In this document: one piece after another, positions 4,452 to 18,012 of the stretch | How the letters are laid out: each line of letters begins with the position of its first letter | How positions within the stretch are numbered: the stretch's first letter is position 1 | From: Candidatus Polarisedimenticolaceae bacterium | GTDB taxonomy: Bacteria; Pseudomonadota; Gammaproteobacteria; Chromatiales; Chromatiaceae | Assembly: GCA_021648685.1 (NCBI GenBank) | Contig: JAKISI010000002.1 | Coordinates: 1 to 64,000, forward strand | Length of the DNA stretch: 64,000 bases | Direction: 5' to 3' | Position numbers and translations under genes: made by a program | The notes under the pieces: model-generated | Told to the model about the DNA's origin: nothing | Databases searched by the model: none | Seen by the model: only the letters and a program-made list of their open reading frames with translations

Positions 4452-6137
4452 ATGTCGTTGCGGTCCATTAATCGGTTAATCCAGCTGGGATATCATTTTG
4501 TCTACCGCTCGAAGGGGCGGTTCTACCTCTATCTGGCTTTTTTTTGCAGCGTTCTGGTGGTGCTGGATGCCACCAGCTTCCATCTTGTTGCAGGCATGCA
4601 GCACCGCACCTTCGATATCATGATGAAAAACCGGATTGTCTATCCCCAGGCAGACCCGGATATTGTCATTGTGGATATTGATGAGGGAAGTCTGGAGGCG
4701 ATGGCCGAGGATTATGGCCGCTGGCCCTGGCCCCGGCAGATCTTTGCTGAATTTGTAGAGAATCTGGAGGAGCAGCAGCCCAAGGCCATCATCTTCGATA
4801 TCCTGTTCAGTGACCCGGATGTCTACAACAAAGAGTCAGATGACTACTTTAATGAGGTCGCTGAGACCACAACCAACACCTTCTTCCCGATGCTCCGGCT
4901 CAACCCACAGAATGATGAGCTGAGCCAGGTAACACCGGCGATGATCCCTGGCATGGGGCGCATCCCTGGGGAGCCACAGCAGGATCGAGGGCTGGCCGTT
5001 ATTCTCCCTCATTTTCCGGCAGTGGTGGCAAGCGGGCGGATGGGCACCAACAACATCTACCCGGACAGCGACGGCATCGTGCGCCAGTATGCACTCTACC
5101 GGCCGCATTTTGGCTGGCGCATACCCTCTCTTCCTGCCAGGGTGGCGGAGGTGCTTGGCTGGGAAGTGCCGGATGAGCAGGATGTGCTGCTGAACTGGCG
5201 TGGCCGGCTGGGAGTCTTCAACACGGTTCGCTTCAGCACCGTTTATGAAGATTACCTCAGCCGGGAGCGGCAGCGCCCGCAGGATGAGTTTGCGGGTAAA
5301 GTGGTGATTATCGGCTCCAGTGCCCCCAGCCTGTTTGATACCAAACCCACCCCTATGGAGCGCATTCATCCGGGCGTGGAGGTACTGGCCACGGCAGTCG
5401 ATAACCTTAAAAATGGCGATTGGATCACCCCGCTTTCCAGTCCCTGGATTTATGCGGGTGTGGCGCTAAGCCTTATCTGGCTGGTGGCGTTGGCCTTCCT
5501 GACCGGTATCAAACGCAGCCTGATTGATGGTGTCTTTGCCGGCTCTCAGGTGGGCCTGGTGGCGGTTTCATACGCCAGCCTGAATCTCTCTACCTATTTT
5601 ATTGACCTGACCGCACCGATAACAGCGGGCTTTATCTACTTTACGCTGGCGCGGGTCTACGCCTATGCCGAGGTGGCGCTGGCTGAGCGTCGTGTCTGGT
5701 TGACACTGGAGAGTGATGCCAAGGGGTGGCAAAACACTCTGGTGGTGGTCTTGCTTGGCAAAGAGGGTGTGCTATCGGAAAGCAAAGTGATCACGGGGCT
5801 GAAGCGGCGGCTTAATGCCAGAAAAGAGGGCTTTACCATTGAGCCATTTCCCGACAAACCAGCGGGGGTTGGGCGCGCCTATGGTGACCTGTTGCTGATC
5901 TATTACGTTGATAGTGAAGTCAGGGAGCAAACATCGTCAAAACAGATGGCAACAGAGCTGCTGCTGGAGATGGTCAAGGAGGAGACAACCATGGTTTGTG
6001 GCACCATGCCGCCACTGGGATACAGCCAGGGAGCCATGCCGTATGGTGATGAGCGCGGACGAATAGCGGTGTGGCGCAGGCTGGTTCATCAAGCCGTTCA
6101 TGCCTTGTACCGTGATGAAGCTATATATAAGGAGTAG
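4452..6137 (+). CDS. CHASE2 domain transmembrane sensor protein
   Basis: A membrane protein of 561 aa. An N-terminal membrane segment lies at about residues 24-45. A large extracytoplasmic CHASE2 domain follows at about 50-320 (typical pieces are PDIVIVDIDE, YGRWPWPR and KAIIFDILFS). Then come three closely spaced membrane segments at about 335-400 and a cytoplasmic C-terminus of about 150 residues. CHASE2 is a ligand-sensing domain normally fused to kinases, cyclases or GGDEF domains. Here no catalytic motif is visible in the C-terminal part, so the output is unknown. AGGGAGG sits 7 bases before the ATG. It is followed 5 bp later by the SH3 gene, indicating an operon. Confidence 0.8.
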   Translation: MSLRSINRLIQLGYHFVYRSKGRFYLYLAFFCSVLVVLDATSFHLVAGMQHRTFDIMMKNRIVYPQADPDIVIVDIDEGSLEAMAEDYGRWPWPRQIFAEFVENLEEQQPKAIIFDILFSDPDVYNKESDDYFNEVAETTTNTFFPMLRLNPQNDELSQVTPAMIPGMGRIPGEPQQDRGLAVILPHFPAVVASGRMGTNNIYPDSDGIVRQYALYRPHFGWRIPSLPARVAEVLGWEVPDEQDVLLNWRGRLGVFNTVRFSTVYEDYLSRERQRPQDEFAGKVVIIGSSAPSLFDTKPTPMERIHPGVEVLATAVDNLKNGDWITPLSSPWIYAGVALSLIWLVALAFLTGIKRSLIDGVFAGSQVGLVAVSYASLNLSTYFIDLTAPITAGFIYFTLARVYAYAEVALAERRVWLTLESDAKGWQNTLVVVLLGKEGVLSESKVITGLKRRLNARKEGFTIEPFPDKPAGVGRAYGDLLLIYYVDSEVREQTSSKQMATELLLEMVKEETTMVCGTMPPLGYSQGAMPYGDERGRIAVWRRLVHQAVHALYRDEAIYKE

Positions 6138-8111: not shown

Positions 8112-8268
8112 TTTTTGCGATGCTCTTGAGTTTGAGTGACCGGCTCCAGAAATATCCCCGATTTGGTGTAGTATACTGCGCGATTAATGGTTTGTATCTG
8201 GGGTTAGTCCGTGGCGGCGTGTCACCTGGTTTTTCAAATTGAGTCTCCCTGATGGAGGTTATATAAGC

Positions 8269-8970
8269 GTGTGTTGGATCAATAGGGGCGTTGCGCTGCT
8301 GCTGGGGCTTGTGATCACCACAGCAAGCTGGAGCCTTGAGTGGAACCATGAAGATGGGGAAAAAGAGCGTGCGTTAACACTAAAACCCAACTACAACCGT
8401 GGGCTGGAGTACTACCGCATCTGTGCAAAATGCCACAACAAACAGGGTTGGGGGCGGCGCGACGGCTCTTTTCCACAGATATCGGGCCAGCACTACAACG
8501 TCCTGATCAAGCAGCTTGTGGACATGCGTGAAAACAACCGCGAGAATCCATCCATGCAGCACTTTGTGATGCCTGAGGTGCTGGGCGATGCCCAGGCGCT
8601 GGCTGACCTCTCCTACTACATCTCCAAACTGCCCATGACCCCGGCAAACGGAAAGGGGCGGGGCAAGAATCTGGAGCGTGGACAGGATCTCTACATGGAG
8701 AAGTGCATTGGCTGCCATGGCGACAACGGTGAAGGTGATAATGAAAAGTTTTTCCCGCGTATCCAGGCGCAACACTATCGCTATATGCTGCGCCAGTTTA
8801 AATGGATAAGAGCCGGTGAGCGGCTCAATGCGCACCCCGATATGCAGATTCGGATTGAGAACTTCACGCTGGAGGACTCCAAGGCGGTGGTCGACTATAT
8901 TTCACGGCAGAAACCACCAAAAGAGATTGTGGCGCCCTCAAGAAAATGGAGAAACCCTGATTTTGAATAG
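8269..8970 (+). CDS. Diheme cytochrome c (c4-like)
   Basis: A 233-aa exported protein with two class I cytochrome c domains. Heme motifs are CAKCH near residue 52 and CIGCH near residue 146. Candidate axial methionines follow each (MQHFVMPEV; MQIRIE). The GTG at 8269 is chosen because GGAGG lies 10 bases upstream; it gives a clean signal peptide with a hydrophobic core. The in-frame TTG at 8239 lies upstream of that site. Cytochromes c4 shuttle electrons in the periplasm between membrane complexes and terminal acceptors. Here it opens a cluster of multiheme proteins, although 101 bp separate it from the next gene. Confidence 0.88.
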   Translation: MCWINRGVALLLGLVITTASWSLEWNHEDGEKERALTLKPNYNRGLEYYRICAKCHNKQGWGRRDGSFPQISGQHYNVLIKQLVDMRENNRENPSMQHFVMPEVLGDAQALADLSYYISKLPMTPANGKGRGKNLERGQDLYMEKCIGCHGDNGEGDNEKFFPRIQAQHYRYMLRQFKWIRAGERLNAHPDMQIRIENFTLEDSKAVVDYISRQKPPKEIVAPSRKWRNPDFE

Positions 8971-9036
8971 TGGGGTGTCTGTTTTGGCATATAAACACCT
9001 ACAAGGCTTAGGCTATACTTGCCAGCTCTTAAGACG

Positions 9037-9053
9037 AGCCTGAAAATCAGGCT
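9037..9053. promoter_or_regulatory. Perfect stem-loop just upstream of the propeller/cytochrome operon
   Basis: AGCCTGA and TCAGGCT form a 7-bp stem around a three-base AAA loop, ending 18 bases before the ATG at 9072. There is no T-run, so a terminator is unlikely. It could be an operator or a 5' leader hairpin that affects translation. Confidence 0.35.
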
Positions 9054-9071
9054 GTGACGAGGGTGTAATCA

Positions 9072-10283
9072 ATGGACAGATTTGGATATTATGCGTACAA
9101 GCGCGCTCTAAAATTTGCTGCGACCCTCCCTCTAACCACCAAGAAGATAATGATGAACCAGATTGCTAACACTTTGAAAGTGCTCTCTTTGGCGCTGCTT
9201 CTACCTTTGAGCAGCGTCATGGCGGAAGATGCTGCCTGGCCCATGTTTCTGCTCAATCCGCAGCACGATGCCCAGCCAGCCTCCAACCTGGCACCGCCAC
9301 TGGATCTGCTGTGGGAGCTGGATGTCGGGGATCTGCTCTACGCCTCTCCTGCCGTCGCTTCCGGCAAGGTCTTTATTGGCTCGCTCTCGGGTATCTTCTA
9401 TGCCGTAGACCAAGAGACAGGCGAACCGGTGTGGAACTTTGAAACCGCCGACGAGATATCATCCTCTGCTGCGGTTGATAATGGTAAGGTCTACTTTGGC
9501 AGCAAGGATGGCACTCTCTACTGCCTGGATGCCGCCACGGGCAAACTGATCTGGGAGTACAAGACCCAGGGCAAAATCGTCAACTCCCCCACGCTGAAGG
9601 ACGGCGTGCTCTACTTCGGTTCGAATGATATGAGCATCTACGCCATCAGTGCAGAAGATGGCGGCTTTATCTGGTCGACCCCCCTGGCTGAAAAGCCCGC
9701 CAGCTCGCGAGGCATCTACGCCTCTCCCGCCGTGGGCCATGGGCTGGTCTATGTAACGCGCAAGGCCTTCAAGGTCTATGCACTGGATGCCAAAAACGGG
9801 GAGGTTGTATGGGAGTTCAAGACTCGCTCAGCCAACTATGCTTCACCTGTGCTCAGCGGCAACACCCTCTATATTGGTGGCTATGATCGCAACCTCTATG
9901 CGCTGGATGCAAAGAGTGGCAAAGTCCACTGGCAGGCAACCGTAGATGAGTGGATCTATGCCTCACCCATCCCATTTCAGGATAGCGTACTGGTGAGTGC
10001 CAAAGATGGCGTACTGAGCTCGTTTGACAGCGCCACGGGCAAGCTGCGCTGGTCGCAGGATCTGCGCGCCCCCATCAGCTCAACCCCGGCAGTAACCCAG
10101 GGCGGCATCGCCTTTGTGGCCAATGAGTATGGTGAGCTGACCGCAATTGATGTGAAAAATGGCCAGCCTATCTGGCAGGAGACACTGCCAGATGACGGGT
10201 TCCACTCCTCCCCGGCCATCGTGGGTGATCGACTCTACATCGGCACCATGAACGGCTATCTGATGGCGTGGGGGCAGAGGTAG
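9072..10283 (+). CDS. Exported PQQ-type beta-propeller protein
   Basis: A 403-aa protein made of about seven to eight tandem blades with the pattern YASPAV...VYFGS.DG.LYALDA.TGK..W, typical of PQQ-binding-like and BamB-type propellers. The ATG at 9072 has GAGGG 8 bases upstream. An internal ATG at 9150 would give a more ordinary 25-residue signal peptide ending at VMA, so the first 26 residues may not be translated. No PQQ or quinoprotein active-site residues were identified; a scaffold or electron-transfer partner role is more likely than an enzyme. It is followed 5 bp later by the octaheme cytochrome gene. Confidence 0.85.
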   Translation: MDRFGYYAYKRALKFAATLPLTTKKIMMNQIANTLKVLSLALLLPLSSVMAEDAAWPMFLLNPQHDAQPASNLAPPLDLLWELDVGDLLYASPAVASGKVFIGSLSGIFYAVDQETGEPVWNFETADEISSSAAVDNGKVYFGSKDGTLYCLDAATGKLIWEYKTQGKIVNSPTLKDGVLYFGSNDMSIYAISAEDGGFIWSTPLAEKPASSRGIYASPAVGHGLVYVTRKAFKVYALDAKNGEVVWEFKTRSANYASPVLSGNTLYIGGYDRNLYALDAKSGKVHWQATVDEWIYASPIPFQDSVLVSAKDGVLSSFDSATGKLRWSQDLRAPISSTPAVTQGGIAFVANEYGELTAIDVKNGQPIWQETLPDDGFHSSPAIVGDRLYIGTMNGYLMAWGQR

Positions 10284-10288
10284 AGATC

Positions 10289-11242
10289 ATGAATAGCAAC
10301 GTGCTGAGGTTTTTGCTGGGGCTGCTGCTCACCTTTGGAATGGCCACCCTGGCGGTGGCAGATGAGGATCTGACGATCAATCCTCATTGGTCCACGACCA
10401 AAGATAAGTGCCTCTCATGCCACGAACATATTCCTGAGAGAGGCGAGCAGTTAAACCTGCGTTATGGTGATGATATAAACAGGCTCTGCAACCGTTGCCA
10501 CTTCGAGATATCCAAAGATAAATACATCCATGCCAGCGGCATGATTGCCCCGCAGACGATGCTGGACAAGATGCCAGAGGAGTTTCTCTCCGGGCTGGAT
10601 GATGAGGGCCGCATCACCTGCGCTGTCTGTCATGATATGACCTATCAGTGCCTCAGCGAAGAGTTTGGACGTAAAAAAGATAACCTCCTGTTTCACCGCG
10701 GAGCGCCCTTCGAAAAACGCACCGATCTCTGTTACAACTGCCATGAACCCTCGGCCTACAAAAAGATGAACCCGCATGATCAGATCAATGATGAGGGTGA
10801 GCTGAACACCGACATCTGCACCTACTGCCATGCCATCCTGCCGGATCGTCGAAATGCCAAAAGCATTGCAGATGTTAAGTTCAAATTTGATAATTTTGAC
10901 ATGCTCTGCCTGCGCTGCCACACAGATGATGCCTATGCCGTGGGCTGTGTGATTGGTTATGAGAAAGATGGCAGCCCCAGGTACCATGCCGGACGACCCG
11001 ATGAGGGGATGTCAGTCCGGATCGAGGCAAACCAGGGGGGAGCCATCCTGCCGCTGGATCTGGTCACGGGCAAGATCTTCTGCGGCACCTGCCATAACCC
11101 GCATGAGCTTGGGGTGCAGCGACGCAGCGAAGCGGATGCGGGTGCTGACTCTCACAAGCTTTTGAGGATCAGCCAGACAAACTCCGGGATCTGCCTTGGC
11201 TGCCATGATGCCAAGGAGATCAAACAGTTCCAACTGCCGTAA
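10289..11242 (+). CDS. Octaheme c-type cytochrome
   Basis: A 317-aa exported protein with eight CxxCH motifs (CLSCH, CNRCH, CAVCH, CYNCH, CTYCH, CLRCH, CGTCH, CLGCH) spread between about residues 41 and 310. The spacing is that of the doubled-CxxCH class. The ATG at 10289 follows GAGG at 10277-10280 by 8 bases; the earlier in-frame GTG at 10268 lies inside the preceding gene. The signal peptide ends near AVADE. Catalytic motifs of hydroxylamine or tetrathionate reductases were not seen, so an electron-transfer role is favoured. It lies between two propeller genes in a tight operon. Confidence 0.87.
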   Translation: MNSNVLRFLLGLLLTFGMATLAVADEDLTINPHWSTTKDKCLSCHEHIPERGEQLNLRYGDDINRLCNRCHFEISKDKYIHASGMIAPQTMLDKMPEEFLSGLDDEGRITCAVCHDMTYQCLSEEFGRKKDNLLFHRGAPFEKRTDLCYNCHEPSAYKKMNPHDQINDEGELNTDICTYCHAILPDRRNAKSIADVKFKFDNFDMLCLRCHTDDAYAVGCVIGYEKDGSPRYHAGRPDEGMSVRIEANQGGAILPLDLVTGKIFCGTCHNPHELGVQRRSEADAGADSHKLLRISQTNSGICLGCHDAKEIKQFQLP

Positions 11243-11252
11243 GACAGTCTCT

Positions 11253-12242
11253 ATGATGCAACTTTTTACTGCCCCCTCCTGGCTCTGCCTCCAACGGAGT
11301 GCATGGTTGATCCTGTTGGCAGCTCTGTGGCTCCCTGTCCAACAGATCAATGCTGCGGCCCCTGCCAGTGAGCTGCTCCCGGTCGAACAGGTTCGGGTCA
11401 TTGAAGGTGGCGACAAACTTGGCCTGCGCCACCCGAGCAATGTCTGGATGAGCTCAGACCATCGCATCCTGGTATTGGACGGGGTCTCAAACCGGGTTGT
11501 CATCTACAGCTATGAGGGAGAATTCCAGCGCAGCTTTGGCCAGGGTGGCAGCGCAAAAGCGGAACTCAACCGCCCGCTGGGCATGACCCTCGATGCCAGC
11601 GATAATGTGTATATCGCCGACTCCGGCAATGCCCGTATCCAGATCTACCGCCCGGATGGTCAACATCTCGATCAGATCAAACTGCCTCAAAGTGAGAAAC
11701 TGAAGCGACCTGACCCCACCGATGTTGCCATCGACAACCAGCGCCAGCTGCTCTATGTGGTGGATAACGAAAACCACCAGGTGCTCGTCTATAGCCTGAA
11801 AGAGAGAAGATTCATCCACACAGTGGGCGGGATGAGCCATAAGGAAGATGGCTTCCGCTGGCCCTTCTCCCTCTATATCGACGCCGCCGGCAAGCTCTAT
11901 GTCGTCGATGTGATCAACGCCAGAGTACGCACCATCCTGCCGAAGAAAGATGGCTTTGAGCTTGGCCATGATATTGGCCGTTGGGGCGTCGAGAAGGGGG
12001 AGCTGTTCCGTCCCAAAGGGGTGGCGGTCAACGCCAAGGGGCAGATATTTATCAGCGACTCCTACCTCGGCGTCATTCAGATGTTCGACAAAAAAGGGCG
12101 CTTCCAGGCCGTGCTCAGCGATGGCCGGGGCAAGGTAAAACAGTTCACCACCCCGACCCGGCTCTATTTCGATGACAAAGGTCTTCTCTACGTGGTGGAG
12201 ATGTTTGCCAACCGTATTGGCGTCTACCGCATCAAACCATGA
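11253..12242 (+). CDS. Exported NHL-repeat beta-propeller protein
   Basis: A protein of about 330 aa. The start at ATG 11253 (or 11256) lies just after the cytochrome stop codon. The signal peptide is long, ending near NAAAPAS. About six NHL blades follow, with repeats such as LNRPLGMTLDASDNVYIADS and FRPKGVAVNAKGQIFISDS. NHL propellers are protein-binding platforms. Together with the PQQ-type propeller, it brackets the octaheme cytochrome. Its stop overlaps the start of the giant cytochrome (ATGA), which indicates coupled translation and probably fixed stoichiometry. Confidence 0.86.
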   Translation: MMQLFTAPSWLCLQRSAWLILLAALWLPVQQINAAAPASELLPVEQVRVIEGGDKLGLRHPSNVWMSSDHRILVLDGVSNRVVIYSYEGEFQRSFGQGGSAKAELNRPLGMTLDASDNVYIADSGNARIQIYRPDGQHLDQIKLPQSEKLKRPDPTDVAIDNQRQLLYVVDNENHQVLVYSLKERRFIHTVGGMSHKEDGFRWPFSLYIDAAGKLYVVDVINARVRTILPKKDGFELGHDIGRWGVEKGELFRPKGVAVNAKGQIFISDSYLGVIQMFDKKGRFQAVLSDGRGKVKQFTTPTRLYFDDKGLLYVVEMFANRIGVYRIKP

Positions 12243-15200
12243 AGCCGCTGAGACTGATCGGGTTTTTCCTGCTGTTCCCCCTGCTGCTGGCCTCCACGGC
12301 GGCTGTTGCGGCTCCTTCAGACAAGCAACCCAATGCATCAAAAGAGTGCGCCATGTGCCATCTGCGCTGGGTTGATGATTTTGATGGCAGCCATGCAGCA
12401 GACTACCTGCTCGATTTTACGGAAGAGAAGGTCGTGGCTGAGGAGATGATGTGCTACAGCTGCCACGATGGTTCAATCATGGACTCCCGCCTGCGAGTGT
12501 GGGAGACCAACCTCCACAAAGAGGGAACCGACCCCTCCAGCAAGATCACCATTCCAGAGACCTTTCCACTCAATTCAAAAGGGCAGTTGACCTGCGCAAC
12601 CTGTCACTCGGCACACGGTGTTGATTCAACGACTGATATGGGGTCGACCATCTTCCTGCGGGTGCCCAATGTCAACTCATCCATGTGCCGTCAATGCCAC
12701 AGTGACAAGGATGACGGTGTGGCAGCGGGCAAGCATCCGGTCGATGTTGTGTTTGATGAGTTCCCGCAAAAGATCCTCGATTTTGGCGGTAAGACCGGCA
12801 GAGACGAGAGCGGCAAAAAGCGCACGGTGATCTGTGAAAGCTGCCACAATCCGCATGGCAGCACCAACGATCACTTTCTGGTGATTCCAAACAGCCAGCA
12901 GGGGGTGACCCACTCCGCGCTGTGCGAAACCTGCCACGGTGTCTCGCCCGACATTCAAAGCACGGATGAGCTGCGGCGCTTTTCGCACCCGGTGGATGTG
13001 GACATCATTGAAGAGGCAAAACTGCCAGAGAGGTGGGATAACGGTGAAAAACCACAGTTGGGCGAAGGCCGGGTCATCAACTGCCGTACCTGTCACTCAC
13101 CGCACAATGGCACCCGGGATAACCACCTGCTGGTATCGAGCAACCAGCAGAGCAAACTCTGCCTGACCTGTCACACCTCGAAGAAAAAGCTGCTGAAGAG
13201 CAAGCATGACCTGTCGGCCAGCTTCCCCGATGAGAAGAACTCGGCAGGGCGGAGTGCGGCAGAGGCCGGCCCCTGCTTCTCCTGCCATTTTATGCATAAA
13301 GGGCAGGGGCCAAAGATGTGGGCGCGGGATATCAGCGGGGAGACGATAGAGGATCTCTGCAAAAGCTGCCACGACAAAGAGAAGGTGGCAGAACATGCCC
13401 TGACCGGCGCACACAGCCATCCGGTAGAGGTTCCCCCCTCCCGAAATATCGATGTGGGCAAGCTCCCGCTCTATGGCAAGCAGAGCGAGAAGCGCGCCGA
13501 TGGTAATGTGACCTGCGCCTCTTGCCACGACCCCCATGTCTGGTCTGTACTATCAGATGACAGGGGGAGTAAAGAGGCCGCAGGCGATGGCAGTAACAGC
13601 TTCCTGCGCCGGATTGCCGCACCCAATGGCGACCTCTGCCAAAGCTGTCATCAGGACAAAAAGCGCATCGCAAAAACCAAACACGATCTGAATATCAGCG
13701 CGCCGAATGAAAAAAATTCCCGGCAGCAGACAGCAGGAGAGTCCGGAGTCTGCGGCGCATGCCATACGCCACATAATGCCAGGGCGGATAAGCTCTGGAA
13801 CAGGCCGCTGGGTGCAGGCGAGGAGTATATCGAACGCCTCTGTACCTCATGTCATGCCAAAACGGGCATGGCCGCAGACAAGACAACTGGCAAGGAGAGC
13901 CACCCCATTGGGGTCAAACCAAAAGAGAGCGGCAATCTGCCGCTGTTTACAGCAGCTGGAAAAAAGAGTGCTCGTGGCAATCTCTCTTGCGGCACCTGCC
14001 ATGATCTTCATCGTTGGGCCCCAGAGAGCAATGAGCGTGGTGGCCGTAAGGTAGAGGGTGATGGCCGCAACAGCTTTCTGAGAGAACCCGCCTCGCCGGA
14101 GAGTGAGCTCTGCCGCACCTGTCATGCTGAAAAGTCGACCCTGCTGGGCAGCAAGCATGATATGCATGTGACCTCTCCAAAAGCCCGTAACAACCAGGCT
14201 CAAACTGTTGAGCAGAGTGGCGTCTGCGGCATCTGCCATGTGCCGCACAATGCCGAAGGCAAACGGCTCTGGGCCATGCGACCACGCGAATCGCAAGACC
14301 CCTATGAGGCGCTCTGTCTCTCATGCCATGCAAAGGGTGGAATGGCTGAAAAGAAGACAACTGGTCCCATTTCCCATCCGCTGGGCAAGCAGCCCAAGAT
14401 GCAGCCAGAGTTCAAAGGCAAGCTGCCGCTGTTCGACAAAGAGGGCAGGCGGGATGACCATGCCGGCATGGTCTCTTGCCCCACCTGTCATAATGCGCAC
14501 CAGTGGGATCCCCTGGCTACCGAAGGGCGGGCGTCTCGTGGCAAAGGGCTGGAGGGTGACCGGAACAACAGTTTTTTGCGGGTGCCATACGATGAGAATG
14601 CCACCCTCTGTTCCGCCTGTCATACAGATAACGCACTGGTTGTTGATACCGATCATGATTTGCGTATTACCGCCCCGGATGCAGTTAACCTGAGCCATGA
14701 AACGGTAGCGGAGGCGGGCGTCTGTAGCGCCTGCCATCGGGTGCACAATGCCTGGGGTAACCGCCTGTGGGCGCGAGGGGTTGGCGCAGGCAGCAATCGG
14801 AACCAGGCGTTATGTACAGGCTGCCATGCCCGGCGCAAGGAGGCGAGTAGAAAGGTGATCGGCGAGCCGTCCCACCCCATGAAACGGGTTGCAGATGCGC
14901 GGCCTACACTGCGTAAAGAGGCGCGTAAATTCTACAGAAAAAAACGCAAGGATGAAGCAAAACCGAAGGAGAAGGAGGAGGCGAAGCTGCCGCTCTTTAC
15001 GAAAGATGGTGAGCAGTCAATAAACGGTGATGTGGTCTGCTCAACCTGTCATAACGTGCATCGCTGGGATCCTGAAAAGCCGGAGAGAGGGCCAGGCAAA
15101 AAAACAGAAGGCGATGCCGGCAACAGCTTTCTGCGCAAATCGAATCTGGATGGCCCCAAGTTGTGTGTCACCTGTCATGCCACCAAAGGCTATGTCGTGG

Positions 15201-15925
15201 GCACGGATCATGACCTCTCCATCACCAACCCCGATGCCAAAAACGGTCTGAACCAGACGGTGGCAGAGAGTGGAATCTGTAGCCCGTGCCATGTCCCACA
15301 TGGCGCTATCGGTGAAGGCTATCTGCTATGGGCAAGAGAAGAGGGGGAGGGGAGCAATCTGCATCAGGAGCGGATCTGCCTGAGTTGTCATCAAAAAGGC
15401 GAGGCAGGGGAGAAGAAGATTGTGGAGGACTTCTCTCATCCACAATCGGTAATCGTCCCCGAGCTGCACCGTCCGGGCAGCAGCAAATATGCGCCGGTCT
15501 ACAATGCAGAGGGGCAGAAGGTCAATGCGGGGCTGATTGCCTGCCCAACCTGCCATAACCCGCATCAATGGACCTCAAGCAGAAAGGGCACAGGGCCGGG
15601 GAAAGAGGTGGAAGGCAACAACAGAAACAGTTTTCTGCGATTTCGGAGTTCAGGGAATATCTGTAGAAACTGCCATGGTATCGACAGCTTGCAGCGCTAT
15701 AAATATTATCACCTGGATGACATCAGAACCTCAGACAGGGCGACCCGAAGCAGGGCGCCGGCAGGTTCCAGAACCAGGCCGCAAGCAAAAGAGGGCGCGC
15801 CAGCAAGTAGAGCAAGCCGGTCTGTGTTACGGGAGGGGGATGAGCGCAAACGTCCCAGCATGTCAGAGCGTCGCCGGGCGCTTATGGAACGACGGTATCA
15901 AAAAGAGATGGGTACCGCTCCATAA
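12239..15925 (+). CDS. Giant 28-heme c-type cytochrome with tandem tetraheme repeats
   Basis: A 1228-aa exported protein with a signal peptide of about 25 residues. I count 28 CxxCH motifs, the first near residue 37 and the last near residue 1143. From the second motif on, they fall into a four-heme repeat. Each unit has a CxxCH followed by SHP, a CxTCH followed by H.W, a conserved EGD..NSFLR, a CxTCH followed by a DHDL box, and a CxxCHxPHNA followed by LWAR. The C-terminal tail of about 60 residues is very basic (Arg-rich) with no heme. No lipobox, sortase signal or membrane anchor is seen. Multiheme proteins of this size usually carry electrons across or beyond the outer membrane; that role here is inference. 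Confidence 0.88.
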   Translation: MKPLRLIGFFLLFPLLLASTAAVAAPSDKQPNASKECAMCHLRWVDDFDGSHAADYLLDFTEEKVVAEEMMCYSCHDGSIMDSRLRVWETNLHKEGTDPSSKITIPETFPLNSKGQLTCATCHSAHGVDSTTDMGSTIFLRVPNVNSSMCRQCHSDKDDGVAAGKHPVDVVFDEFPQKILDFGGKTGRDESGKKRTVICESCHNPHGSTNDHFLVIPNSQQGVTHSALCETCHGVSPDIQSTDELRRFSHPVDVDIIEEAKLPERWDNGEKPQLGEGRVINCRTCHSPHNGTRDNHLLVSSNQQSKLCLTCHTSKKKLLKSKHDLSASFPDEKNSAGRSAAEAGPCFSCHFMHKGQGPKMWARDISGETIEDLCKSCHDKEKVAEHALTGAHSHPVEVPPSRNIDVGKLPLYGKQSEKRADGNVTCASCHDPHVWSVLSDDRGSKEAAGDGSNSFLRRIAAPNGDLCQSCHQDKKRIAKTKHDLNISAPNEKNSRQQTAGESGVCGACHTPHNARADKLWNRPLGAGEEYIERLCTSCHAKTGMAADKTTGKESHPIGVKPKESGNLPLFTAAGKKSARGNLSCGTCHDLHRWAPESNERGGRKVEGDGRNSFLREPASPESELCRTCHAEKSTLLGSKHDMHVTSPKARNNQAQTVEQSGVCGICHVPHNAEGKRLWAMRPRESQDPYEALCLSCHAKGGMAEKKTTGPISHPLGKQPKMQPEFKGKLPLFDKEGRRDDHAGMVSCPTCHNAHQWDPLATEGRASRGKGLEGDRNNSFLRVPYDENATLCSACHTDNALVVDTDHDLRITAPDAVNLSHETVAEAGVCSACHRVHNAWGNRLWARGVGAGSNRNQALCTGCHARRKEASRKVIGEPSHPMKRVADARPTLRKEARKFYRKKRKDEAKPKEKEEAKLPLFTKDGEQSINGDVVCSTCHNVHRWDPEKPERGPGKKTEGDAGNSFLRKSNLDGPKLCVTCHATKGYVVGTDHDLSITNPDAKNGLNQTVAESGICSPCHVPHGAIGEGYLLWAREEGEGSNLHQERICLSCHQKGEAGEKKIVEDFSHPQSVIVPELHRPGSSKYAPVYNAEGQKVNAGLIACPTCHNPHQWTSSRKGTGPGKEVEGNNRNSFLRFRSSGNICRNCHGIDSLQRYKYYHLDDIRTSDRATRSRAPAGSRTRPQAKEGAPASRASRSVLREGDERKRPSMSERRRALMERRYQKEMGTAP
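12452..15690 (+). repeat. Coding tandem repeat: four-heme module of about 150-190 aa
   Basis: Successive module starts, taken at equivalent CxxCH motifs, lie near 12452, 12920, 13357, 13840, 14311, 14813 and 15374. Periods are about 467, 437, 483, 471, 502 and 561 bp. The last full module is lengthened by a Lys/Glu-rich insert near 14900-14990, and the final one lacks its fourth heme. The modules are clearly homologous but diverged, so they are old duplications and not a fresh expansion. Confidence 0.8.
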
Positions 15926-16001: not shown

Positions 16002-16076
16002 ATGGAAGAAGTGTTACTTTATCCTGAAAACAGCAGCAGGTTTCAACGGCTCTTTTTAGGGTTATACGATGCCTGA
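16002..16076 (+). CDS. Possible 24-residue leader peptide coupled to the Wzz gene
   Basis: A short frame starts at ATG 16002, about 8 to 10 bases after AGGAGA, and ends at TGA 16074-16076. The stop overlaps the start of the polysaccharide co-polymerase gene at 16069 by 8 bp. The peptide begins MEEVLLYPEN and has no recognisable domain. The overlap could couple translation of the large gene to the short one. It may equally be chance, since the Wzz start has no strong ribosome site of its own. Confidence 0.3.
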   Translation: MEEVLLYPENSSRFQRLFLGLYDA

Positions 16077-18012
16077 CCAGATCCCAACCATTGAGGTTAT
16101 CCAGGGGCCATCGGCCGCCTCTGCTCCTCAGGGCGACCCACATGGGCGCAGCTCACGGCGTCTCTGGGTATTCCTGATCGTATTTCTCCTGTGTGCTGCC
16201 GCCGGGCTCTTTTATACCTACTCCCGACCTGCAGTCTATCGCACCACAGCCGCCCTGTTAACGGTCGCCATGCCTGCGGTGGATCAGCAGGGTGCCGTGG
16301 CAGATATCCAGCATGTTGCCATCCAGCGCCAGCTTTTGCTGGGCCAGCCGCTACTGCAAGAGGTGCTGGAGAGACTGAAGCAGGGAGACCATTTTCGACA
16401 CATCGACAGCGTTGCCCAGCTACAGGGGATGCTGTTTGTTGACTCGCTGAGTGATACCAATATTGTCAATGTAAGTGCTGAAGGGCCGATACCTGAGGCG
16501 CTGCCCGCTGTGGTGAACAGCTGGGTAAATGTCTATCTTGAAGTGCGCGCCCGGAAGATCAAAGAGGCCACAGGGACAACCACTCAGGCCCTGAAGGAGC
16601 AGCATCAGGCTCTGGCGGCCAAGGTTGATGCCCGGCGTGCCGAACTGGACAGCTTCCGTCAGGAGCATGACATCCTGAGCATGGGGCGCGATGAAAATCA
16701 GGTGCTTGCCCGGTTGAAGGGGCTGACCCAGGCGCTCAACACCGCCAGTGAAGAGGAGGTAAAGGCGAAGGCGGCGCTGGAGACCATTCATAAAGCCATT
16801 GCCAAGGGCAAGCCTGTGGTGCCTAAGGATGAGCAGAGAAGTCTGACGGCGCTGGAGACCCGCGCTCAGCTGCTCAGGGAGAAGCTGACGGCACTGCAAC
16901 GCCGTTATACCGATACCTTTATCGCTATCGATCCCAACCTTAAGACCATTCCCAAGCAGCTGCAGGATATTCAACAAGAGATCAAAATGAAGGTTGAGTA
17001 TGGTCGGAATACGGTGCTGGCCGATGTGGAGCAAAAATGGGCGATTGCACGGCAGTCGGTAGCCGAGTTGCAGGCTCAGCTGAGAGGGCACAAAAGCAAG
17101 GCGACCCTCTTTACCGCACGTTTCGCCGAACATGAGGCGCTGCAGGAGGATCTGGCCCGTCTGGAGGAGCTCCACCGTACCACCGGGGAGCGTTTAGTGG
17201 AGATCGAGGTGCAGAACCGGCAGAAATTTCCGCAGGTCAATGTGCTGGAGTATGCCCAACTGCCCGTTCACCCGGTGCGACCGCAATATATGCGTGATGC
17301 CGCTATCGCCTTGGGTTTCTCTCTGCTGGTGGCTCTGTTTGCCGTCTGGCTGGTTGAATTTCTTTTGCGCAAGGAGAGAAAGCAGCAGCCTCAGACCCTG
17401 GCGGACCTGCACCTCTACACCGAACCGCAGCGGCCAGCCATAACCCCGTCGGCTCCAGCCATCGCTATCCCTGGGCAGGCGCATGCGGCACTGCCACAGC
17501 CGGCAGGCATCGAGTTGGACGGAGAGGAGATCCAGCAGCTATTTGAGTCATCAGACCTCATCGGCCAACAGCTGATTGCCCTGCTGCTGAGCGGGCTGAC
17601 ACTGGAAGAGGCGGCCAGGGTAGAGCGGCACTGTTTTGACTTCAAGGGCGGCAGGCTTCGGGTGGCCGGAGATCAGGAGCGAATACTCACCCTGGCTCCG
17701 TCGGTTTTGGATCTCTTCGTTGAAAATAAAGAGCTGGAGATTGTGACAATCCCTATGGCTGAGCTGGCGGCAAAGATCACGCTACTGGCGGTAGATGCGG
17801 GACTCTGTGACCCGGAGCGGATAAACGCCGAATCCATCCGGCAGAGCTATCTCACCTATCTGGTGCGGCAGGGGGTAAAGCTGTCTGAAGTAGACCAGGT
17901 GGTGGGTGGTGTATCAGCCACGCAGCTTGCTGCCTGTGCACAGCTGTCGCCGGAGGGGCCGGGTAAACCCCTGGAGGAGATCGACCTCGTCTACCCGTTG
18001 TTCAGAGCCTGA
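16069..18012 (+). CDS. Wzz/GumC-type polysaccharide co-polymerase with unusual C-terminal domain
   Basis: A 647-aa inner-membrane protein. Membrane segment 1 is at about residues 30-50, followed by the Wzz domain. A long coiled-coil periplasmic region spans about 150-390, and membrane segment 2 is at about 407-430 with a preceding Pro-rich HPVRPQY motif. Such proteins set the chain length or drive export of surface polysaccharide. The cytoplasmic tail (about 485-647) is not a BY-kinase. It resembles the catalytic fold of tyrosine recombinases (LLLSGLTLEEAARV, then ESIRQSYLTYLVRQGVKLSE) but lacks the first catalytic Arg, the HxxR histidine and the tyrosine. It follows the 28-heme gene by 143 bp in the same direction and overlaps slmA tail to tail. 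Confidence 0.8.
   Translation: MPDQIPTIEVIQGPSAASAPQGDPHGRSSRRLWVFLIVFLLCAAAGLFYTYSRPAVYRTTAALLTVAMPAVDQQGAVADIQHVAIQRQLLLGQPLLQEVLERLKQGDHFRHIDSVAQLQGMLFVDSLSDTNIVNVSAEGPIPEALPAVVNSWVNVYLEVRARKIKEATGTTTQALKEQHQALAAKVDARRAELDSFRQEHDILSMGRDENQVLARLKGLTQALNTASEEEVKAKAALETIHKAIAKGKPVVPKDEQRSLTALETRAQLLREKLTALQRRYTDTFIAIDPNLKTIPKQLQDIQQEIKMKVEYGRNTVLADVEQKWAIARQSVAELQAQLRGHKSKATLFTARFAEHEALQEDLARLEELHRTTGERLVEIEVQNRQKFPQVNVLEYAQLPVHPVRPQYMRDAAIALGFSLLVALFAVWLVEFLLRKERKQQPQTLADLHLYTEPQRPAITPSAPAIAIPGQAHAALPQPAGIELDGEEIQQLFESSDLIGQQLIALLLSGLTLEEAARVERHCFDFKGGRLRVAGDQERILTLAPSVLDLFVENKELEIVTIPMAELAAKITLLAVDAGLCDPERINAESIRQSYLTYLVRQGVKLSEVDQVVGGVSATQLAACAQLSPEGPGKPLEEIDLVYPLFRA

Follow-up and report, generated by a model that had tools for sequence, protein, structure and literature searches.

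Beta-propeller proteins recur in electron-transfer clusters without a demonstrated role, and several described systems offer points of comparison for the locus analyzed here. The closest are two gammaproteobacterial systems, Uet of Candidatus Tenderia electrophaga (uetABCDEFGHIJ) and MHCR of Candidatus Thiomicrorhabdus electrophagus, which in the available excerpts combine multiheme cytochromes with an NHL or six-bladed propeller and a beta-barrel protein (PMC10734462, PMC9751133; further PMC12575090 and, for Tenderia, PMC5371394). The DFE_0448-0465 cluster of Desulfovibrio ferrophilus IS5 interleaves multiheme cytochromes with six- and seven-bladed propellers and, according to the portions of the reports considered, has no apparent porin-cytochrome conduit (PMC8322314, PMC9769857). 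PCC3 of Gallionellaceae is described as including a periplasmic cytochrome with 21 to 27 hemes that may span the periplasm (PMC10734462). Geoalkalibacter (PMC12016550) and Dethiobacter (PMC10376724) also encode NHL proteins within multiheme clusters, for which the excerpts considered suggest functions in mineral binding, in secretion and orientation, or in complex assembly.

The window, a stretch of 64,000 nucleotides, carries a cassette of five genes on the + strand at positions 8269 to 15925. The first gene (8269..8970) encodes a diheme class I cytochrome c with two CxxCH motifs and a 50-bit match to PF00034, which presumably resembles cytochrome c4; its GTG start has a TTG alternative at 8239. 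It is followed by genes for a PQQ/BamB-type beta-propeller without heme motif (9150..10283, in an ORF open from 9072 with a likely ATG at 9150), an octaheme cytochrome c (10289..11242, ATG at 10289, eight CxxCH motifs), an NHL beta-propeller (11253..12242, ATG at 11253, NHL match of 90.5 bits) and a 28-heme cytochrome c (12239..15925). The open reading frames and motif counts agree with the initial annotation, which had described five rightward genes, 38 CxxCH motifs and tight junctions. Indeed, the motifs total 38 (2 + 8 + 28), no further open frame of the window contains two or more, and the junctions measured from the likely starts are 5 bp (PQQ-octaheme), 10 bp (octaheme-NHL) and an ATGA overlap (NHL-28-heme). 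The diheme gene ends 101 bp before the PQQ ORF and 179 bp before its likely start. Signal-peptide-like (Sec) N-termini, which had been claimed for all five proteins, are recognizable by eye. Pfam matches in the cassette are to Cytochrom_C, PQQ_2/ACSF4 propeller, Paired_CXXCH/cytochrome c7 and NHL, and profile searches yielded no match to porin, reductase or oxidase families within it. Promoter-like sites are at the level of shuffled sequences (5 versus 5.0), and terminator-like sites are within one standard deviation of it (11 versus 8.4, sd 3.3).

The cassette shares an NHL protein with the Uet and MHCR clusters but lacks their barrel, undecaheme, tetraheme and triheme proteins. The multihemes of MHCR are described as carrying 3 to 11 hemes, and 24- or 28-heme cytochromes, a PQQ propeller and an octaheme are unnamed in the excerpted descriptions of these systems. 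By description, the mixture of multihemes and propellers resembles that of the D. ferrophilus cluster, whose own lipoproteins and PPIase differ; this species belongs to a different phylum from the window organism. Compared in the same manner, the window protein has 28 hemes and the PCC3 periplasmic cytochrome 21 to 27; the porin, extracellular multiheme and inner-membrane protein with which PCC3 is described are all absent from 8269-15925. With MtrCAB and MtoAB the common theme is trans-envelope multiheme electron transfer, and the cassette gives MtrC/MtrF-domain matches and below-cut-off DmsE matches; however, it encodes no decaheme, and the window genome (G000; 2.95 Mb, 98.8% complete) has no match to the MtrB_PioB barrel (PF11854). 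The Oet conduit (PMC10553843), whose main text lacks the words "propeller" and "NHL", did not match the cassette, nor did a Methylobacter MtrA/MtrB-type cluster (PMC13322032), in whose text "NHL" is absent. Term searches of the text of PMC12133095 and PMC11748539 revealed nothing closer to the cassette. The initial annotation had made its reading depend on the cluster differing from any characterised system, and no equal was found in the parts of the open-licence literature searched. In that literature, an electron-transfer system of this kind (Uet/MHCR/porin-cytochrome) is already known, and there is no description of an NHL-large cytochrome pair as a fixed unit, of NHL fusions, or of the exchange of electron-input modules (plugs) considered below.

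All six same-genus genomes examined, the window genome included (G000-G005), have a detectable five-gene cassette, with its genes split over contigs in G001 and G002 and the NHL and 28-heme frames interrupted in G005. Pairwise dN/dS values for the five genes relative to G004 are 0.056 to 0.17 (dS relative to G003 is saturated), indicating that the cassette is not a chance assembly and is under purifying selection. The diheme orthologues in the five other genomes are 88-97% identical and lie upstream of the PQQ gene, and in another genus (G017) a PQQ fragment at the end of a contig is likewise preceded by a diheme gene (82% identity over 210 aa). Four orthologous contigs have named sources: JALSJZ010000118.1, with an NHL protein 93% identical, belongs to a Sedimenticola MAG, and the other three belong to gammaproteobacterial MAGs without further classification, two of which bear "Dive96" isolate names. 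Within the order, the octaheme query has matches at E up to 0.001 in 26 of 210 genomes, a figure that includes weak matches to other multihemes; in a sample of 369 genomes from the class, an eight-row octaheme alignment used as query has matches in 19. Co-occurrence of propellers and cytochromes in relatives, on which the earlier reading also hinged, is thus observed.

The surroundings of the cassette are variable. Upstream, GspE-like, CHASE2, SH3 and M48 genes are common to the window, G002 and G004; in G003 these genes are more distant, with about 5.4 kb of other genes intervening, and G001 has an opposing gene of similar size before the cassette (858 aa; 861 aa in G003). Downstream, G001, G003 and G005 carry other genes, and in G002 the contig stops. 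These differences delimit the conserved unit to 8269-15925. A Wzz-like gene at 16069-18012 was rejected as a cassette part, since an 85% homologue follows the cassette in G004 only, none is present in the G001, G003 and G005 stretches, and the G002 contig ends first. Its 647-aa product resembles Wzz/XrtA-type chain-length proteins at a score under the cut-off for that family, and its long C-terminal extension weakly matches a XerA recombinase model. On the upstream side, positions 4452-6137 encode a CHASE2 protein of 561 aa without a detected Pfam output domain, adjoining the SH3 and M48 peptidase genes.

A consistent feature across relatives is the association of the NHL propeller with the large cytochrome. 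Homologues of the window large cytochrome with at least 12 hemes were counted in 65 annotated loci, leaving out the window's own; the 43 genes obtained, many of which are close orthologues, are distributed over 29 genomes. Of these genes, 28 are immediately preceded by a same-strand NHL gene (gap of -80 to +6 bp, mostly a 4-base overlap), 12 are fused with NHL first, and the remaining 3 are at a contig edge where NHL remnants are visible each time (G001:C31, G001:C44 and G017:C77). NHL is adjacent or fused, then, in 40 of 40 determinable genes. Some of the 65 loci were originally found through an NHL search; in the loci found through the octaheme query, 13 of 24 genes are adjacent, 11 are fused and 0 are without NHL. 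Nine labelled pieces with fewer than 12 hemes were left out of the count: L033, L034 and L035 hold the second parts of broken genes, L074 holds three pieces of the interrupted G005 copy, and L066, L112 and L145 hold weak matches (24-28%). Among these, neither L074 nor L145 shows an upstream NHL label, L112 begins at the end of a contig, and no NHL protein is among those scanned in the L066 locus. The fusions (12/43) and the near-universal adjacency mark NHL and the large cytochrome as integral partners, and by this gene-level evidence the two proteins behave as one unit. The natural fusions also constitute single-chain constructs with which the role of NHL can be tested.

The cassette, which we call module A, is more instructive when viewed together with its sister modules than as an isolated conduit. 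Module B of the same genome (G000:C88, L025 6531-14226) encodes a 6-heme protein with a C-terminal helix, a b561-type cytochrome b, a triheme with an N-terminal helix (both helices judged by eye), an octaheme, an NHL protein and a 24-heme cytochrome. Its octaheme and NHL proteins match those of the window at 65% and 78%, and the module is seen in four of the six same-genus genomes, G003 and G004 being the exceptions. Module C (G000:C65, L026), seen in all six, encodes in order NHL, 4-heme, a 597-aa barrel candidate, PQQ propeller, octaheme, 7-heme, cytochrome b (30.0 bits against a b561 cut-off of 30.1), triheme, NHL, 24-heme, 5-heme, NHL and 11-heme proteins, the last with at least 10 motifs in G000 and 11 in G002. 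Its barrel candidate has 19 strand-like segments by a crude count, compared with a maximum of 17 in 200 shuffles, and gave no Pfam match and nothing below E 0.38 in a PDB sequence search. Position and strand count make this protein a candidate outer-membrane barrel. The term "porin-less" in the initial annotation is thus accurate for the cassette and not clearly so for the cell. Likewise, its proposal of a dedicated electron-transfer assembly holds insofar as the cassette is conserved and NHL is tied to the large cytochrome; the assembly does not stand alone, being one of three related modules.

Module C and loci of other families contain the kinds of parts found in Uet and MHCR (a 4-heme protein, two further NHL proteins, a barrel candidate and an 11-heme protein), a likeness judged from the gene contents given in excerpts of the published descriptions. 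In G303 and G331, genes for a 632-672-aa barrel candidate, NHL and an 11-heme protein are followed directly by octaheme, 7-heme, cytochrome b, triheme, NHL and 24-heme genes. G335 differs from this arrangement by an opposing set of triheme, cytochrome b and 6-heme genes that follows the octaheme. The run in G508 is similar, with a 6-heme replacing the 7-heme and an 18-heme protein at the end, and in G276 the first part of the run is visible. A further module, D, occurs in the family of the window genome and in others, with NHL fused to a 12-18-heme cytochrome beside a triheme and a large multiheme; in G115, the one locus tested with Pfam, the large multiheme has a NapH-like iron-sulfur domain. 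Module D looks like a complete, separate trans-envelope system, judging by its genes. A fuller set (L103 3513-16288) comprises a large 7-8-heme protein, a barrel candidate of about 420 aa with 20 strand-like segments (shuffle maximum 14), 7-, 8- and 6-heme proteins, an iron-sulfur/multiheme fusion, a triheme and the NHL-cytochrome fusion. The module is also present at L099, L101, L102, L104, L107, L110 and L146-L149, in some of which it is cut or missing a part.

Several lines of evidence suggest that modules A and B derive from a common ancestor. Midpoint-rooted trees of the octaheme and of NHL, which carry long-branch warnings for copies that include those of G078:C47, place A, B and G078:C47 together at 100/100, apart from C. 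The G078:C47 locus, from another genus, is intermediate in content, with contiguous genes for 6-heme, cytochrome b, triheme, PQQ, octaheme, NHL and 24-heme proteins. In module B of G005, 58 N-terminal PQQ residues (59%, E 2e-17) are fused to the octaheme frame, and a weak C-terminal PQQ piece (E 0.32) occupies the same spot in G001; PQQ remnants before the module B octaheme are strong at L034 8635-9861 and weak at L039 10827-10929, and no such trace was detected in the module B loci of G000 and G002. In the simplest history consistent with these sequences, an ancestral seven-gene set would have been duplicated, after which B lost PQQ and A lost the quinone module and gained the diheme. In the NHL tree the copies of A and B are intermixed, for which gene conversion may be responsible. 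In G420 and G520, from another family, PQQ, octaheme, NHL and 24-heme genes have neither a quinone module nor a diheme gene beside them. Thus, the diheme plug is not general, and the quinone plug may have been lost more than once or the four-gene block may be older. Three parallel modules together with decay traces of exchanged parts amount to a natural experiment on the wiring of electron pools to heme chains.

The large cytochromes also differ in length. The 28-heme protein consists of eight N-terminal hemes, five tetraheme units with a heme spacing of about 38/30/53/42, and a basic C-terminal tail, and the 24-heme proteins of B and C contain four such units. The nearest B units are B1 for A1 (49%), B2 for A2 (54%), B3 for A4 (59%) and B4 for A5 (55%). 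Units 2 and 3 (13739..14710, + strand) are both nearest to B2, A3 with 52% identity, suggesting that one unit was probably gained by duplication in the 28-heme lineage. A PDB sequence search with the 28-heme protein returned weak matches to 9yuq (E 0.00022) and to 49 residues of 7tfs (E 0.00095), which we take to be OmcE, a cytochrome of the nanowire type. An AlphaFold2 prediction made with four orthologues has a mean pLDDT of 25, and the model is unusable.

We judge the chances to be evenly balanced that, within a modular trans-envelope electron-transfer system of the Uet/MHCR/porin-cytochrome kind, the cassette is a module that supplies a wire. The 28-heme protein would then form a long heme chain, bound by the NHL propeller at its N-terminal end, a placement chosen because NHL comes first in the fused polypeptides of relatives. 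At one end of this chain, the octaheme would serve as a periplasmic adaptor for which the PQQ-type propeller would provide the scaffold. The diheme may act as a soluble plug that replaces the membrane cytochrome b/multiheme quinone module expected to feed the sister modules. The missing quinone plug and the conserved diheme suggest to us exchange of electrons with the high-potential respiratory chain, and a cbb3 oxidase subunit is encoded in the genome. The large cytochrome would probably span the periplasm to reach an outer-membrane conduit encoded elsewhere. Since the cassette lacks a barrel, the conduit may be shared with module C, whose barrel candidate and 11-heme genes are the candidate partners. 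Gene content, conservation, paralogy, the pairing and fusion with NHL and the traces of exchanged modules are observed in the sequences; that the proteins form a physical complex, and its location, direction and partners, we infer. Only tentatively do we extend the proposal to an undescribed family of re-pluggable trans-envelope heme wires, in which 12-28-heme cytochromes grown by tetraheme duplication, paired with split or fused NHL, would be coupled through the octaheme to interchangeable plugs (cytochrome b quinone or soluble diheme), with three versions in one cell. If so, that cell would possess separate wires for different electron pools.

A related possibility is that the 28-heme protein and the propellers lie outside the outer membrane and touch a mineral, an electrode or a neighbouring cell, which comes close to the surface or intercellular route raised in the initial annotation. 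Propeller proteins and large cytochromes do occur together in extracellular electron-transfer loci, the D. ferrophilus propeller DFE_0463 and multiheme DFE_0465 are reported among extracellular proteins in the excerpts considered (PMC8322314), and the basic tail of the 28-heme protein is compatible with this location. We nevertheless regard it as rather unlikely. In none of the five proteins do the first 45 residues contain a lipobox pattern, the cassette includes no secretion gene, and in relatives the large cytochrome gene sits beside inner-membrane-type cytochrome b and triheme genes, with the barrel candidate and the 11-heme gene at the far end. This gene order favors a periplasm-spanning wire, a role also suggested for the PCC3 cytochrome (PMC10734462), which we consider more likely than an extracellular one.

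It is improbable that the cassette instead encodes a soluble heme reservoir between dehydrogenases and the oxidase, having no link across the outer membrane, even though many-heme cytochromes may store electrons according to the excerpt considered (PMC10734462). The soluble diheme carrier and the lack of both a cassette porin and a genomic MtrB_PioB match would fit such a store. However, the octaheme, NHL and large cytochrome genes are contiguous with barrel-candidate and 11-heme genes in several relatives, and the need of a store for two dedicated propellers is not obvious.

The octaheme and the PQQ-type propeller were also considered as enzymes. The propeller scores 225.8 bits with PQQ_2 and 204 bits with the ACSF4 propeller, and falls below the cut-offs for PQQ dehydrogenase (TIGR03075, 123.5 of 480 bits) and BamB (TIGR03300, 189 of 285.2 bits); its single Cys precludes a vicinal disulfide. 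In the octaheme, the assignment of all eight non-motif His as distal ligands was rejected, as only five are invariant in the 23 of 23 eight-heme relatives aligned, and so not all of its hemes need be bis-His. A CxxCK catalytic heme motif is defining for the nitrite and octaheme reductases NrfA and ONR, and the octaheme has no CxxC without H, nor a Cx15CH motif; its PDB sequence matches are to cytochrome c nitrite reductases and are weak (E 0.03), and the AlphaFold2 model with four orthologues is unusable (mean pLDDT 40). Even though up to three octaheme hemes may be without a fixed His ligand and PQQ folds are often dehydrogenases, catalysis by either protein, with the large cytochrome carrying electrons to or from it, is very unlikely given these motif and model results and the absence of the PQQ gene from module B.

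The window genome, from a Sedimenticola relative, encodes the cbb3 oxidase and an ATP sulfurylase without a RuBisCO large subunit or dsrA over cut-off, and a sulfur-oxidising autotroph setting is not supported, as the latter two are missing. Two further multiheme loci of this genome were noted. The first (G000:C71, L066 7097-11662) encodes a 13-heme protein, a thioredoxin-TPR protein, an 8-heme protein and an FAD oxidoreductase, and the second (G000:C27, L069 5828-10813) encodes a protein of 1662 aa that has 11 CxxCH motifs and is otherwise sparsely annotated with domains.
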